NCBI GenBank assembly: GCA_030272155.1
Contig: CP126204.1
Coordinates: 2,781,501-2,845,500, forward strand
Length of the DNA: 64,000 nt
Direction of reading: 5' to 3'
From: Tetradesmus obliquus
Taxonomy: Eukaryota > Chlorophyta > Chlorophyceae > Sphaeropleales > Scenedesmaceae
Below, piece by piece: positions 1,781-11,159 of this stretch. A program made the position numbers and the translations under genes. Position 1 is the stretch's first letter, and each line of letters opens with the position of its first letter. The notes below the pieces were generated by a model. It saw only the letters and a list, made by a program, of their open reading frames with translations, had not been told where the DNA came from and did no database searches.

Positions 1781-3879
1781 GACGGGTTGATTAGCATGCA
1801 TTTCGTTGTGAGGTACAGAGCAGCAAAGCAGCAACAGCTGTGGTAGCTGTTCCAGCAGCATGCGGCTGCCTACGCCAGAGAGGCTGAGGTAGTGCTGCAG
1901 TGTGCCGGTGCTGTCAGTCTCGTCAGCAGGTTCGACAGTGATGCTGCCGGTGCCAGTGGGTGGGTGGAGGGCAGCAGCAGCAGCATGGACAGCATTACTG
2001 ATATGCAATGTAAACTGTTCTTATAAATGCAGTTTCTTGCCACAACAGCAGCACATCAGTGCTTGCTGCTTGATCAATATTCATGCCTCTTGCCAGTAAC
2101 TGTCAAAACTGTGCTCACTCTGCTTTTCTGGTCTCAGACCTGTGTTCAACCTGTTGTGGCTCAAGACGGTGCCAGGACCCACACGTAACCATCCTCTCTC
2201 AAAAAAACCTGACGCAGCCACAACCACCAGACCTCTGAAGTTCCACAACCGTGGCCCACACATGCCACTTACTGCAAACTCGTGAGTGCTGTCAGCAGCC
2301 CCATTCCACCCGCCAGCACAGCCAGCGGCCAGGCTGAGCCGACCAAATATATTGCCGTCCGTACGTCCCCTGAACCCTGCACCCTTACGTAACACAATGA
2401 GAAGTGCAACTCACTGCAGGCTGGTAAGTGATGTCAGCAGCCCCATTCCTCCAGCTAACACAGCCAGCGGCCAGGCAGTGCCGAAGGCCAGGTGGCGCAG
2501 CCGTGGCAGCCATGGCAACGCCAAGCTTTGACATTCCTGAACCGCCTAAAACCCCTCAACACACTAAAACTAGTTGCATCCTGATGCTGAAACTCTAAGA
2601 TACTCACTGCAGGCTGGTGAGTGATGTCAGCAGGCCCATGCCGCCAGCCAGTACAGCCAGCGGCCATGCAGTGCCAAAGGCCAGGTGGCGCAACCGTGGC
2701 AGGCAGGGCAGCCCCCGCGGGTCCCGCATGTAGGACCAGTGGCTGCTGCTGGCACAGATACCTGACAAGTCCAGCGAGGTTAAGCCAGTGAGGCCTGCAT
2801 GTGTATGTGCAGAGGGGGCCAGAGAGAGCAGGACACAGAGTGTGTCAGCATCAGCAGCAGAAAAGTACTTGGATGAAAAAAACGTCTGACAGCAGCACCG
2901 TTCTGTGAGGCAGGAAGGGCAGGCCCCATGGCTCCCACATGTAGCTCCAGTGGCTGCTGCTGGCGCAAATCCCAAACAGGTCCAGCCTGGTTAAGCCAGT
3001 GAGGCCTGCATGTGTGTGCAGCGGTCCTATGTGCCCACGGCCAGCAGCATCTACAACCGCCAAAACCCTCAACCCTCACCTGGCAGCGCCCGCAGCAGCA
3101 GCGCCCCGTCGGCGCCGGCAGCGTCATGAGTGGCCAGCAATGACAGCCTGGGGCAGCCAGCCAGCGCGGCACCCTGCGCAGCAGATTCAAACTATCTGAA
3201 ACAGCTCTCACCTGCAAAATGCTCTCCGCAGTAGTACTGCGACTGCGCAAGCAGCGTCATGAATGGCCGGCACAGACGTGTTGGACCCTAAACCAAGCTT
3301 CCGGCAACAGCATACTCCCTAGCTCACCTGGCAGTGCCCGCAGCAGCAGCACTTCGTCAGCGCCAGCAGCGTCATGAATGGCCAGCGATGACGGCCCGGG
3401 GCAGCATCAACAACCCTAAATCCTGCGGACTTCAAAGCCCCTAAAACTTCTCACCTGGCAGTGCTCTCAGCAGCAGTGCCCCATCAGCGCCAGCAGCGTC
3501 ATGAACAGCCAGAGATGACAGCCCGGGACATCCGGACAGTGCAGCACCCAGCGCAGCAGCATAGCCCCACTCCTCCTCATACGCCTCATCTTCTTCGTTG
3601 TTATCTGCTGCATCTGCTGCTGCATCTGCTGCTGCCTCGTCTGCTGCTGCTTCGTCTGCCCCCACATCTTCTGCTGCAGCATCTGCTGCTGCCTCATCTG
3701 CTGCTTCATCTGAGCCCACATCGACGTCTACTGCGTCGTCTGCTGCTGCGTCATCAGCTACATTGGCTGCTGCTTCATCTGCCCCCACAGCTTCTGCAGC
3801 ATCATCCATGTCATCTGCTACATCTGCTGCAGACCCTGCTTCTTCGGCTGACGTATCTACTGCCTGGCCTGCTGCTTTA

Positions 3880-3917
<38 letters not shown>

Positions 3918-4209
3918 GGCATCTGCTGCTGCGGCATCTGCGGCATCAACTGGAAGTTCCTGCAGCAGCGGCTGCGCCAGCTGCTGTGCCGCCTGGGCAT
4001 CGCCACCTGCCTGCAAAGCTGTATCGGCTGCAACAGCCTGCCCTGCAGCCGCTAGGCTGCCTGCTGCTGCTGCCTGTTCTGCTTGCAGCTGCTCAGCCAG
4101 CTCAAACATCTCCTCATCTACACTCCAACCTATCGAGAATGCAGGTGATGATGGCACAACAGCAGCACCTGCTGCAGGTGCCGCCTGTTCTGCTGCCAAC
4201 GCCAGCGCC

Positions 4210-4263
<54 letters not shown>

Positions 4264-4402
4264 CGCTCACGCGCCCCTGCCGCCTGCCGCGCAACCTCTA
4301 CTGCAGCAGCCACAGCAGCCTGCACGCTACTGCCAACTTCTCCTCCACTGCCATCTACCCCTGCAACTCCACCACCTGCTGCTGCTACCGCACAATCTGC
4401 TG

Positions 4403-4435
<33 letters not shown>

Positions 4436-5642
4436 AGTCAGACAGTTGTGCCAGGTGAGCCAGTCCAGCCAGCACAGCAGCAGCCCCATGGGCCCAGTCC
4501 CACTCACCATCACCCCAGTCCCACAGGCCAGGCAGGGTGTCCTCAAGCGCCAGTTGCAGCGATGTGACCTGCAGAAATGTGACGTGACAAGTTGTAACAT
4601 GTTACTTGGTGTGTAACATGGCACGGGCCCAGTCTCACTCGCCATCCCCCCAGTCCCACAGGCCAGGCAGGTGTCCTCAAGCGCCAGCTGCAGCGATGTA
4701 ACCTGCAGGCACAAAAGTGTAACATAATGTAACATGATATGTGACATGGGCCCAATCCCATTCGCCGTCCCCCCAGTCCCACAGGCCAGGTAGGGTGTCC
4801 TCAAGCGCCAGCTGCAGTGATGTAACCTGCAGAAATGCGGCGTGACAAGTTGTAACATGTTACATGACGTGTTTCATAACATGGGCCCAGTCCCACTCGC
4901 CATCCCCCCAGTCCCACAGGCCCGGCAGAGTGTCCTCAAGCGCCAGTTGCAGCGAAGTAACCTGCAGGAATGCGGCAAGACACACTGTAACATGTTACAT
5001 GACGTGTTACATGACATCGCCCAATCCCACCCGCCGTTGCCCCAGTTCCACAGGCCTGGCAGGGCGTCCTCAAGCGCCAGCTGCAGTGATGTAACCTGCA
5101 GGCACAACAGTGTAACACAATGTAACATGTGTCACATGACATGGGCCCAATTCCACTCGCCGTCCCCCCCATCCCACAGGCGTGGCAAAGTATCTTCTAG
5201 CGCCAGCTGCAGGGATGTGACCTGCAGCAATGCAGTGTAACTCAACGTAACTTCAAGAAATAACGATTACAAACAATGCTTGATCCCAGCACCCAGCAGC
5301 CACTCAGCCACCCACCTGCGGAGCGTAGCGCTGCAGCAGCTGCACACACTGCAGCAGGCACCAGGGGCTATACACAACCGCTGCTGCTGCTGGTAATAAA
5401 TCCTGCGTGGCGGACGTGCTAGGATCCTGCAAACTGCTGCTGCTGCTGCTGCTGCTGTTGCTGTTGCTACTTGGGTCGCTGCTCAGGCCATGCATGTCAG
5501 CAGATGCAGGATGGTCAAACCAGAGGCTGCTGCTCTGGTACTGCTGCTGCTGCTGCTGCTGCTGCAACCCACACACTAGGCTGTTTGTAATGCTGCTGCT
5601 TTTACAACCGTTGCTGTTGTGCTGCTGTACTTGTTCATTGCA

Positions 5643-5681
<39 letters not shown>

Positions 5682-5785
5682 AGGCCTGCCAATGCTGAGT
5701 CCTGCAGCAGGAGCCTCAGCAGTGCTGCCTGCTTGGTTGTTTTGGCTGCCTTCACCTGCTGCATTGTTGCATTGAGCACCAGCCT

Positions 5786-5857
<72 letters not shown>

Positions 5858-7483
5858 GGCTGCCTGCGGCCACCTCATAAACCCTGCACTGTTGAGACCT
5901 GAACCGCAGCGTTTGAATGCCGGGGGCGACAGCCAGCAGCAGTGCCAGCACCAATGGGTCAGCAGGGCAGTCCTCGACTTGCTGCAGCTTGCCCCAAAGG
6001 ACACAAACCCCACTGCTGCTGCTGCTGCTGCTGCCGCTGCTGCACTGAAAGAGTGCTATTGCTATGGTTTCGCTTGGTGCTGCAGTCTGCTGCTGCTGCT
6101 GCTGCTCGTCCAGCAAATGTTGCTGGTAATAGCCCTGCTGCTGCTGCTCCTCCTGCTGTTCCTCGGCCTCCTCCTGCTGCTGCTGCTGCTGCTGCGCCTG
6201 CTGCTGCTCTTGCTGCTGCTGCTGCTGCTGTGCCTGCTGCTGCTCTTGCTGCTCCTGCTGCTCCTCCTGCTGCTGCTGCTCCTCCTGCTGCTGCTGCTCC
6301 TCCTGCTGCTGCTGCTGCTCCTGCTGCTGCTGTTGCTCGTCATGCCCAAAAGCCAGCTGATGCTGATGCATCATTGCATGCAGCAGCAGCTGCGCGGGAT
6401 CAACCGCAACATGCAGCTCCCCTGCCGCCTCCGCCTCTGCCTGCTGCTGCTGCTGCTGCTGCGCAACATGCTGCAGCATGCTGTGTACTGCAGCAGCAAC
6501 GCTGCGCAGCACTCCCAACTGCACCTGCTGCGCTGCTACTGGGCAAGACCTGCTGATATCAGCAAGGCATGCAGGCTCCAGAACACGGCTGAAGGACAGC
6601 TGTGTTATGTTTGGGTAGGTTGCTGCTAGCGAGGCCAGGGCTGGCAGCAGCTGCAGCGCTGCAGGCTGCTGGCTGGTGTCTGCATCTGCTAGCTGGATGT
6701 TCAGCCTGCAGGTGCAGTAGAAGAACAGAGAGGTGCCATCGCAACAATATGCATGCAGGGGTGAACAGCAATACAGCATTGCCCTGAATGTTGAGCCTGT
6801 ACGGGGCAGTGTGGAGGTGCAGCAAAACACATAGGTACTGGCAGACACATCAGCATGCCTGCACTCATGAACAGAAAGCCAGTCAAGACACATCTGCTGG
6901 CTGGTGTCTGCATCTGCTGACTGGATCTTCAGCCTGCAGGTGCGGCATAACAGAGACTCAACACAAAGAGAGGTGCTTTCACAACCATGCCCCGTGCAAT
7001 TATGAACAGCAGGTCAGCACCGCTCTGGATGTTGAGCCCTGCTGGGGGTGCAAGTGCAGCAGAGCACACGCAGGGGTGCTGTAACTACAGCTCAGCATGC
7101 ATGCTTTGGTGAACAGCAAGAAAGTAAGACGAGCCCGGCAAGCTTCAAAGACAAAGCCATTGGGCAGCCCAGAGCACGCCGCATGGCAGGCTCATACATA
7201 GGCACGGTGAGCATGGAGGCATACCATTCTGCATGCCTGCTGACGTATGCAGTTGCAGCTGCATGTACATTCTCAACGCGCACAAAATTGCATTGTACAA
7301 GCTTGCCATTGCCATTGCAATAAAAACAAACAAACAGTTACACGTGGCCCAGCCCACCTGGTGATGTTCTTGTTCACTGCATGACGCAGCTCGCTGCAGC
7401 ACAGCCGCAGCTGCAGCGCCGTGTCAGCCGTGGCGCAGCCAGGCAGGCGGTAGATGAGCACGTGCTGCAGCGAGGCAGAAACA

Positions 7484-7915: not shown

Positions 7916-9054
7916 ATGTCCTCCAAACGACCTGCAAAAGCGCACACAGCATCATCTTCAGCAGCCAAAAGGAGCAAAACTGGCGGCAGCAGCAACAGTG
8001 GCGATGATATGCAGCAGCAGCTAGAAGCAGCCATACTGTCCCTCCTGCAAAAGCGCAAGCCTGGGGCCACCATCTGACCTTCGGAAGCACCACGCCAGGT
8101 CAGCAACTCTTCAGAATACAAAACCCTCTGTTTAAGAAAAAACCATCAGCATTCAATGCAGGAGACTGCAGCTGCAGAAGTGACACAGTCGAGAAGTGGC
8201 AGCAGAGCAAACCCTAGCTAGCATTGGGGCACATGCACTGCAACAGATGTTGAAACCGCAAAGCTGTCTGTTTTCAGTGTTCCATGTCTACAAATAGGTG
8301 ATGGATTGCAGTCATGGGGCGCAGCCTGTGATAGGACCTGACACAAAGCAAGTGTGCCAATCGTGGTTAGCGGCAGCAGCGGCAACTCCTACCGACCCTG
8401 CTGCTGCTGCTGCTGCTGCTGCCAGGTGTGCCCTGCAGGGGACTGGCGTGGTCTGATGGAGGCTGCCAGGCAGGCAGCAAGGAAGCTGGCCAGGCAGGGG
8501 GCGGTTGTCATAACACAAAAAGGACAGGTGCGAAGCATGCCAGTGCTCCCCTTGACATGTACGTCAAGGAATGCTTTGCTTAACATACTGTTGCTGCGTT
8601 AACGAAAAGCATGAGCAACTGCAGCACCTGCTGGTTGCTGGGATACTTCATCCTTTATGTGTTGTAAAGGCTGCTTGGTTCTCACATTCAAGCATCCAGG
8701 AACCTTTCTTTGCTCCAACATCTACCAATTCAAGACATGATAGTTACATGTGGGTACTTTGTTCACAAGACTGCATGTGGTGTGCTGTCGCTGCCGCAGG
8801 TTGTTGACCCTGAAAGCTTCAAAGGACCTATCCGGCTGCGGCTAGTGGCTGGCGCAGCTGCTGCTGCTGCTGTCACCCCAGCAGCTGCCAGTGGTGGGGC
8901 AACTGGCACCAGCACAGCAGGCAAGCCAGGCCGCAGCAGCTCAGCACACACTAGAAGCAGCCCTGCTGGTGGCAGTGGCAAAGCCCTCCCCAGCTTGAGT
9001 GGTGCTACTGGGAGCACTGCAGCAGCAGCTGCAGCTGTTGCACCCAGCAGCTAG
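7916..9054 (+). CDS. DUF3253 winged-helix-like protein with in-frame UGA (candidate selenoprotein)
   Basis: Three exons: 7916-8098, 8426-8527 and 8800-9054. All introns are phase 0 and the total is 540 nt. After a basic N-terminus (SSKRPAKAH, AAKRSKTGG; nuclear-signal-like) comes the DUF3253 pattern: LEAAILSLLQKRKPGATI, then PSEAPRQ, DWRGLMEAARQAARKLA, AVVITQKGQ and VVDPESFKGPIRLRL. From my knowledge of the family, the usual text at the first join is T-I-C-P-S-E. Here the Cys codon is TGA (8075-8077), while every other family position is intact and open. No splice donor lies between the TGA and GT at 8099, so splicing cannot easily remove it. A Ser/Ala-rich tail follows. Function of the family is unknown; DNA binding is inferred from the small winged-helix-like pattern. 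Alternatives to selenocysteine are a recent nonsense mutation or a sequence error. Confidence 0.75.
8075..8077 (+). other. In-frame TGA, candidate selenocysteine codon
   Basis: TGA sits between codons for Thr-Ile and Pro-Ser-Glu, exactly where DUF3253 proteins usually have Cys. The frame remains open and family-like on both sides and across two further introns. Cys-to-Sec is the expected exchange in selenoproteins, and green algae are known to make them. Confidence 0.5.
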
Positions 9055-9379
9055 CCTCTAGTGCAATTAACAGCTGTGTCAGTGCTTGAGCCAGCTGCAC
9101 CTGCTGCTGTTGCTGCTGCTGGCAGCACTGTGCCAGAGCAGCAGCAGCAGCAGCAGCAGTATGTTTGCCAGCGAGAGGCCTGGAGGAGCCTTTCAGTGCT
9201 TGAGATCCCTGTGCAGCTCCTTTAACTGATGGAGAAAGGCGCAGAACACAGACAGCAAGGCGTGACTATCATTATTGATTTGTGTTTGTGCCTTCAAGGC
9301 AAAGTTTGTGGTCAGTGGAATGTGAACACCAGGCGTTGTAGTTACTGCAGTGGGGCCCTGCAGCATGCAGTGTGGTTTT

Positions 9380-9441
9380 ATGACGCAGCTGTTGGCCAAG
9401 CAGCTGCTGCAGTTTGGCAGCAGCAGCCTGCAGCTGCTGAC
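9380..9441 (+). promoter_or_regulatory. SECIS-like hairpin 3' of the DUF3253 gene
   Basis: About 326 nt after the stop codon there is ATGA (9380-9383). It is followed by a helix of GCAGCTG (9385-9391) plus GGC (9394-9396) paired with GCC (9426-9428) plus CAGCTGC (9431-9437), with a two-base mismatch. Then come an unpaired CAA at the 5' side of the apical loop and TGA (9438-9440) opposite ATGA. This matches the layout of a eukaryotic SECIS: AUGA/GA core, helix of ~12 bp, apical AA. CAG-rich DNA pairs easily with itself, so chance is a serious alternative. Confidence 0.4.
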
Positions 9442-9663
9442 AGCACCGTGCTTGTGCTGCAGGCCTCCATGCAGGAAGGTGATTGTCGGTTGCAACAGTG
9501 GTGCCACAGTTTGTTGAATCTGGGAGCCAAGCAACTAGCTAGTCGACTGTTGACTTTAGGACATTGCATGGCTCTAAGGGTTGTAACGCCAACAAGCGGC
9601 TTGAGCCATTGCGGCACAGCAGCCAACTCTGCCTGCACTTGGCAACATGCAATCCCCTGCAGT

Positions 9664-9699
9664 CGCTATGGCTTAAGTGGTAACATGATGATGATGATG
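9664..9699 (+). mobile_element. 36-bp 5'-truncated LINE tail with target-site duplication
   Basis: The insert reads CGCTATGGCTTAAGTGG..AACATG followed by ATG/GAT repeats. It is flanked by a perfect 17-bp duplication, ATGCAATCCCCTGCAGT, at 9647-9663 and 9700-9716. The same 3' end (CTATGGCTT..GGGTAACATGATG) closes the larger LINE at 35.88 kb. This is the signature of target-primed insertion of an almost completely truncated copy. Confidence 0.85.
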
Positions 9700-9838
9700 A
9701 TGCAATCCCCTGCAGTTCAAGAGCTGTTGTACACCAGATTGAGGCGGCCTCGGAAGAAGCAGTGGTAGCTGAACAGCAACCAAAACAGGAACCCATCCAC
9801 TGTGGCACTGGGCTACAGCAGAGCCAACGGTCCTTGCC

Positions 9839-10108
9839 GTAGATAACCCAAACCTTAACCGATTTTACAGTTTCCACTATTTGTTTCCTTTTATTTTGAG
9901 GAGGTTGAGTTAGGTACACCTTAGGGCATTGCATCAATACGGATCTACAAACCCTTTGGGAATTAATGCGCAATCTGACCTTGTTGACTTTTATCCCTAT
10001 TTTTATACAAAAGATTTGGTTGCTGCTTTGAGGTTGAGTTTTGGTGCTGCTTATTTGGTGAACTTTAACCCAGAACTTTTGGGACACCCAGATAACAACA
10101 TTCCAGCT
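9839..10108 (+). pseudogene. cob: Nuclear copy (NUMT) of mitochondrial cytochrome b
   Basis: One continuous frame encodes a recognisable piece of apocytochrome b: VDNPNLNRFYSFHYLFPFIL, then ALHQYGSTNPLGI, DFYPYFYTKDLV and LLGHPDNNIPA. The segment is distinctly AT-richer than its neighbours and uses organelle-like codons. In the standard code one TAG (9911-9913) interrupts it and four AGG codons give Arg where cob usually has small residues. Read as TAG=Leu and AGG=Ala, the segment becomes ILAALSLVHLAALHQYG, matching the family. No in-frame TCA occurs, consistent with TCA being a stop in the scenedesmacean mitochondrial code. The insert is a fragment, without start or end, and is not expected to be expressed. 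Confidence 0.9.
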
Positions 10109-11159
10109 AGAGGATTTTGTGCAGCGCCGTTGTGAATGTTACCAACTGCTGTTGCTGAGTTGTACTCAACGCCTTGTTTACGCTCCCAGCAGACGTTCAG
10201 CTTATCATGCAATGTGCACATTACATCCCGCAAGCTTTACACGCAGCAAATGGCACACATGAGCCACCTGGCATGCACGCAATGCTGCTTCCTCCATCAG
10301 CATGTAGCTGGCTGGCTGTTACTACTGGCCCACTGGCCCAAACCGCCTGAAATGCTGAGCACAGTCAGACCCCCCTGGAACTTTTCAATGCAATGGCACT
10401 GGACAGACCACGGTGTGAATGACACGCCTATCACACTACTACGAGTGCTAAAACACGACTGCTGCAGTCACGTGTTGTCCAGAGCACTCAGCACGCAGGC
10501 TGCAGCTACTAGCTGCAGTAGTACCGCAGGCAATACCATATCGAATGACATCATTGCAGGACAATCGGCGTGCTGTAGAAACCATTATTGCCTTCAATGT
10601 ACGATGTGAAAACTTGTTGAACTAAACAGCACCCTAACAAGTGATAAGAATGGTCCAAACTGCGCATTGTCATGGATAATGGGACATTTGCACTGCAACA
10701 TGTGCAACACACAGAACTTTTGTAGAACCTCATACCAGTGCATGCTGCAGTATCTTAGCAGCTGCTTTGAAACCAATCAGCGCGTTTTATTGCTGCTGTC
10801 CATCCCCATTTTACCCCCGCCCTTGTCCCATACTGCTATGTTGTCGTGGCTGCAACTGCCACGGTTGGTGGCATGCTGCCGCCGGCTGCTTGAGGGTTCC
10901 ATGTCTTTGGTGGTCCAAAAGCCTAACAACCCTGAGTTGTGCATAGCTGCAAGTGTGGATGTCATGTAGCAGGTGGCCTGGTTAACAACTCATTTTGTGT
11001 CCTGCAACGGCTGCAGGACCGCCACATCCACCGCCTTCCTTGTTCAATGCCTTCCCCTCGCTGCATCGGCTGTGCAACATCCGCTGCCGTTGAAGCGCTT
11101 GCCGTTTCTCATGGCTGTGTGTTGCTGCATGCCGCAACACACTGCTGCAGCCCTGCAGC
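10109..11159. other. Intergenic, no gene recognised
   Basis: Between the cob fragment and the aquaporin stop I see no family-like reading frame on either strand. Base composition returns to the local average immediately after the NUMT. It probably includes the aquaporin 3' UTR. Confidence 0.5.

Follow-up and report, generated by a model that had tools for sequence, protein, structure and literature searches.

Within the window, i.e., the whole 64,000-nt stretch of Tetradesmus obliquus DNA analyzed here, a gene of the DUF3253 family (PF11625) occupies positions 7916–9054 of the + strand and is split into three exons. Exon 1 (7916–8098) was delimited by its translation and splice sites and runs from an ATG to ...TI(TGA)PSEAPRQ, closing on the donor CAG/GTCAGC; exon 2 (8426–8527) encodes VCPAGDWRGLMEAARQAARKLARQGAVVITQKGQ and carries a PF11625 match at 8441–8530 (model positions 37–66), while exon 3 (8800–9054) encodes VVDPESFKGPIRLRL followed by an Ala/Ser/Gly-rich tail and the terminal TAG at 9052–9054. 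The exons are separated by two GT-AG introns of phase 0, at 8099–8425 (327 nt) and 8528–8799 (272 nt), with the exon borders, including those of intron 1, inferred from the family alignment, and with the ATG as the presumed start. Once joined, the exons form 179 codons with a single internal stop, a TGA at codon 54. With Cys placed at this TGA, the joined protein matched PF11625 at 100.7 bits (E 5.3e-29; curated cut-off 22.1), residues 34–110 aligning with positions 2–80 of the 81-position model, so that an earlier sequence-only reading of this DNA, which had proposed a three-exon DUF3253 protein interrupted by nothing but a TGA, was confirmed on this point. A six-frame family search of the 104.7-Mb, 17-contig assembly returned this locus, in the window at C14:2781501-2845500, as the only DUF3253 locus, in the form of two matches, the exon-1 match holding one TGA.

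Exons 2 and 3 are conserved in a protein of Scenedesmus sp. NREL 46B-D3 (Chlorophyta, Sphaeropleales; P0060), with 80% identity over 53% of the query, this being the one eukaryote among the homologues that carry an organism name. Another homologue, P0071, ceases to follow the family sequence at the position of intron 2, seemingly by reading on into an intron. A search of viral contigs gave no relative. Elsewhere in the window, positions 9929–10132 (+ strand) hold a mitochondrial cytochrome b fragment, open over 68 aa (E 2e-18 to 9f5x_1A, no Pfam report at E 0.001), which lies ~490 nt 3′ of the hairpin described below and presumably reflects the insertion of mitochondrial DNA into the nuclear genome. 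A 529-aa Gln/Ser-rich frame lies open in CAG-repeat DNA at 5304–6893 (− strand), with a sub-threshold match to BUD22 (24.3 bits, cut-off 37).

Next, we evaluated the residue that homologues carry at the in-frame TGA (8075–8077, + strand), which the sequence-only reading had proposed as a Sec codon standing exactly at the family Cys of TICPSE. A total of 181 distinct proteins were listed, including 120 of the 828 from one search, and 178 of these span the site, P0060, P0068, and P0071 not covering it and being left out of the count. The site is Cys in 177 of the 178, with Ser in P0069 only, and Cys was likewise read from DNA in 80/80 bacterial loci (the best 80 of 305), a set that leans towards Cys given that the Cys motif was itself part of one of the six patterns used in the search. 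The in-frame TGA thus aligns with the Cys of the homologues, as had been proposed, and the pattern named beforehand as speaking against a Sec codon, i.e., homologues with neither Cys nor Sec at this residue, did not emerge among the homologues read. Among 389 genomes sampled from the class to which a Desulfobacterales locus belongs, 10 have DUF3253: none of these ten showed a stop inside the family match, i.e., no bacterial Sec form was seen there, and all nine in which the site was read carry Cys. A second Cys of the algal protein (VCPAG) is not conserved, being Cys in 1 of 158 homologues with a residue at that position. A parallel to exon 1 came from P0084, on a 14-kb contig, which reads STCCPSEAPRQLCPEDW with Cys at the TGA site, and which shares with the algal gene an M..KR start, PSEAPRQ, and a CP before DW (PSEAPRQ.CP), suggesting that it may be a eukaryotic Cys relative. 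A search for exon-1 fragments of DUF3253 in other algae gave no candidate.

Downstream of the TAG stop, the + strand contains a hairpin of the SECIS type. The only + strand TGTAA of positions 9000–11000 lies at 9582–9586, 3′ of this hairpin, and we take this motif to be a green-algal poly(A) signal; the placement of the hairpin in a putative 3′ UTR (9055–9600) relies on it, while the SECIS core and helix were found by custom scans. The core hairpin (9380–9440) is type II-like and comprises an ATGA (9380–9383), a helix II of 11 pairs including one U.U mismatch, an unpaired AA (9398–9399) located 18 nt past the A of ATGA, a mini-stem of 8 bp with a 6-nt loop, and a TGA (9438–9440). With its flanking lower helix (9345–9475), it reaches a minimum free energy (MFE) of −75.5 kcal/mol. 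The ATGA stands 325 nt from the TAG stop, and both this distance and the structure agree with the sequence-only reading, in which a hairpin with an ATGA/TGA core, a helix of ~12 bp, and an apical AA had been placed ~326 nt past the stop.

The specificity of this hairpin depends on how it is ranked. In a strict fold-based scan of both window strands it was the only match, and among the 66 occurrences of an [AG]TGA/AA/TGA core on both strands (128 kb) it came first by helix-II duplex energy (−20.5, with the runner-up at −13.1). A loose-core scan of the window, i.e., any NTGA, any NGA, and an apical AA, CC, AC, or CA, was permissive by design and yielded 87 matches, among which the hairpin ranked ninth by fold energy; the claim therefore rests on the canonical core combined with a strong helix II, and not on bulk stability. 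Dinucleotide shuffles of 9055–9600 reached −20 kcal/mol or lower in 2 of 4000 cases and −15 or lower in 16 of 4000 (observed, −20.5), while the MFE of the 114-nt segment 9354–9467 (−62.8) was only ~2.3 standard deviations below the shuffle mean (−53.9, sd 3.8). The hairpin region is rich in CAG/CTG repeats, and hairpins arise easily in such a region.

To place these features in their genomic context, we surveyed the assembly for Sec decoding and for other selenoprotein genes. Two tRNA-Sec genes with anticodon UCA were identified on contig C1 (loci L003 and L004, with identical scores and ~1.1 Mb apart), the other two RF01852 matches being tRNA-Ser, and SepSecS exons were found on C7. Judged by these two components, the Sec-decoding machinery is present in the host. 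The available text of a survey of core chlorophyte classes reports the full Sec machinery in all genomes examined but one (PMC6627142). A glutathione peroxidase (GPX) gene on C5 (locus L025, reverse complement, ~2690–5267) could serve as a control when algal SECIS models are evaluated. Its profile matched one exon barely above the cut-off (27.4 bits vs 27), and by eye the preceding exon reads NIASE(TGA), the TGA being the active-site codon, with later exons continuing through RNYVKFLVNREGQAVARYKPG to the stop; algal GPX is mainly of the Sec form according to the available part of PMC7539508. At 338 nt past this stop lies a type I-like hairpin, ATGAC-GGGCCATGGTGC-AAA-CACCAGCCATGGCCC-TGAG, with a helix-II score of −20.6.

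Early SECIS scans demanded at least 38–45 nt between the cores and missed the GPX hairpin, which was spotted by eye before the distance rule was loosened, so that the widened rule is fitted to its own control; the DUF3253 hairpin was already the top match by the strict rule, before this loosening. The widened scan, permitting a shorter core distance, covered 339,806 strand-bases, including added loci of the same genome that were not drawn at random, and gave 252 matches led by GPX (−20.6), DUF3253 (−20.5), and an unrelated locus, L036 (−20.1). The L036 segment lacks a SECIS-type fold, while helix II and the apical part adopt it in both the GPX and DUF3253 segments. In the MFE folds of these two hairpins some core bases pair with their neighbors, because a non-Watson-Crick quartet lies outside what the energy model can represent. 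The Rfam SECIS models, including SECIS_1 (RF00031), gave no match at the DUF3253 locus, and a SECIS_1 search of the whole genome gave none either; the GPX hairpin of this genome likewise went unreported by the Rfam models.

Other candidate selenoprotein genes were considered alongside these. The further GPX genes (C1 and C3) read Cys and were rejected as Sec forms, as was MsrA, whose active-site exon has Cys in each of the three genes observed. For Rdx/SelW there was one match in the genome, without a recovered exon carrying the CxxC/U motif, and the two matches to the SELENOU-like PF13911 were stop-free, with no Sec exon seen. The SelM profile matched neither in the genome nor in the controls, making that search uninformative. 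The thioredoxin reductase end pattern GGNTGYTGAGGNTAR occurred at 20 places in the genome, none of them resembling a thioredoxin reductase by eye; three occurrences at C16 2621226–2621778 show a 269-base spacing and apparently belong to a tandem repeat.

Taken together, we consider it very probable that the product of this gene is a DUF3253 selenoprotein, from a family not known to include selenoproteins. This reading is favored by a near-invariant Cys at the site of the TGA, by a canonical core at a suitable distance from the stop, and by the position of the hairpin before the sole TGTAA, as well as by a genome that encodes tRNA-Sec, SepSecS, and a GPX with its own TGA and same-core hairpin. 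The interpretation of the TGA offered by the sequence-only reading is therefore well supported, albeit not proven. Under the proposed mechanism, and assuming the splicing and 3′ end given above, the spliced mRNA would have UGA as its codon 54, with a SECIS following 703 nt downstream in the 3′ UTR. The SECIS would recruit SBP2 and eEFSec with Sec-tRNA(UCA), and the ribosome would then insert Sec where relatives carry Cys and terminate at the UAG.

Given that TGC or TGT becomes TGA by a single substitution, the TGA could instead be a recent nonsense mutation in a dying gene or a null allele, falling on the Cys codon by chance, with the hairpin a product of CAG-rich DNA. The repeat-rich surroundings, the modest rank of the hairpin under the loose core, and the fact that TGA and hairpin have so far been seen in one genome only would all fit such a scenario. 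However, the 75-codon domain has 20 further codons that are one step from a stop, so that the chance of the TGA landing on the near-invariant Cys is roughly 1 in 21, the frame contains no other stop, and shuffled sequences rarely reach −20 kcal/mol (2 of 4000). The tRNA-Sec and SepSecS genes of this genome, and the similar hairpin that follows its GPX, also speak against a decaying gene, and we regard this explanation as unlikely.

Still less probable is an assembly error at a true TGC or TGT, i.e., an ordinary Cys-containing DUF3253 protein: this would leave the hairpin unexplained, and the 17 contigs obtained for 104.7 Mb denote a continuous assembly, yet one whose continuity is uninformative on single bases. 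The TGA might also be a genuine stop, with exons 2 and 3 forming a separate, shorter gene that starts from the Met of DWRGLMEAARQ, which is where the Scenedesmus protein P0060, a record marked partial, begins. However, the same start would also be expected from an annotation blocked by the TGA; moreover, a separate gene would break up a conserved domain, and PSEAPRQ would go untranslated although this segment matches both the family and P0084. We consider this the least probable of the alternatives, and highly unlikely.

For the selenoprotein reading, Sec would replace a functional and probably reactive Cys. The algal protein is a full domain match to the DUF3253 family, for which one solved structure, 2NS0 (“Hypothetical protein”), is matched by the family profile at E 5.1e-33. 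As judged from the sequence, the domain would adopt a winged-helix-like fold in which the Cys opens a helix, and our guess is that the Sec would act there as a reactive selenolate in redox or nucleophilic chemistry or in metal binding. Many bacterial homologues (e.g., P0009) carry an N-terminal Cys-rich DUF2256 domain (PF10013), which the joined algal protein lacks. We see about an even chance that this is a new Sec family in a small winged-helix-like and possibly nucleic-acid-binding domain, rather than a thioredoxin-like one, with a selenolate used for redox sensing, nucleophilic repair, or metal binding in an unstudied DUF3253/DUF2256 pathway. A photolyase was encoded near bacterial DUF3253 at two of eight loci scanned for neighbors (10 proteins), and this link was set aside as too weak, with 5/80 loci against 4/80 and 5/80 for two control proteins, i.e., no enrichment.

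If the selenoprotein reading is true, the one conserved Cys of DUF3253 would be singled out as a probable reactive residue, which would offer a direct biochemical handle on a widespread bacterial family without known function. Genes of this kind would, moreover, be truncated at the TGA by standard annotation, and the shortened Scenedesmus record P0060 hints at this. To our knowledge, DUF3253 is not a thioredoxin-like family. In the main texts open to full-text search, the term DUF3253 retrieved no paper, either alone or combined with selenoprotein, in agreement with the sequence-only reading, which knew of no DUF3253 among described selenoprotein families. In its available text, a 2026 review (PMC13188914) names several further DUF families that contain Sec, and PF11625 is absent from its main text. 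Discoveries of new selenoprotein families in eukaryotes are rare: the available text of a survey of 137 algae reports 42 families, three of them new (PMC7539508). The term DUF is absent from the main text of that survey, which also names a family Hypo.

As far as the available text of PMC7539508 describes them, the new algal Sec families resemble the present case in having bacterial Cys homologues (SymSEP) or prokaryotic homologues (AhpC_b), and differ from it in being thioredoxin-, PDI-, or peroxiredoxin-like by name and description. Within its own family, the algal gene stands apart by its TGA, while the homologues read carry Cys and, in one instance, Ser. The DUF3253 hairpin fits the AUGA_AA_GA pattern given for human Sep15 and Chlamydomonas SelW1 in the available part of PMC3705309. 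The DUF3253 TGA lies outside any CxxU motif. The nearest comparison is with the C5 GPX gene, a probable green-algal selenoprotein gene that likewise carries an in-frame TGA at the Cys of its homologues and a 3′ hairpin with an ATGA/AA/TGA core, at 338 nt from the stop vs 325 nt for DUF3253, the former hairpin being type I-like and the latter, with its mini-stem, type II-like.
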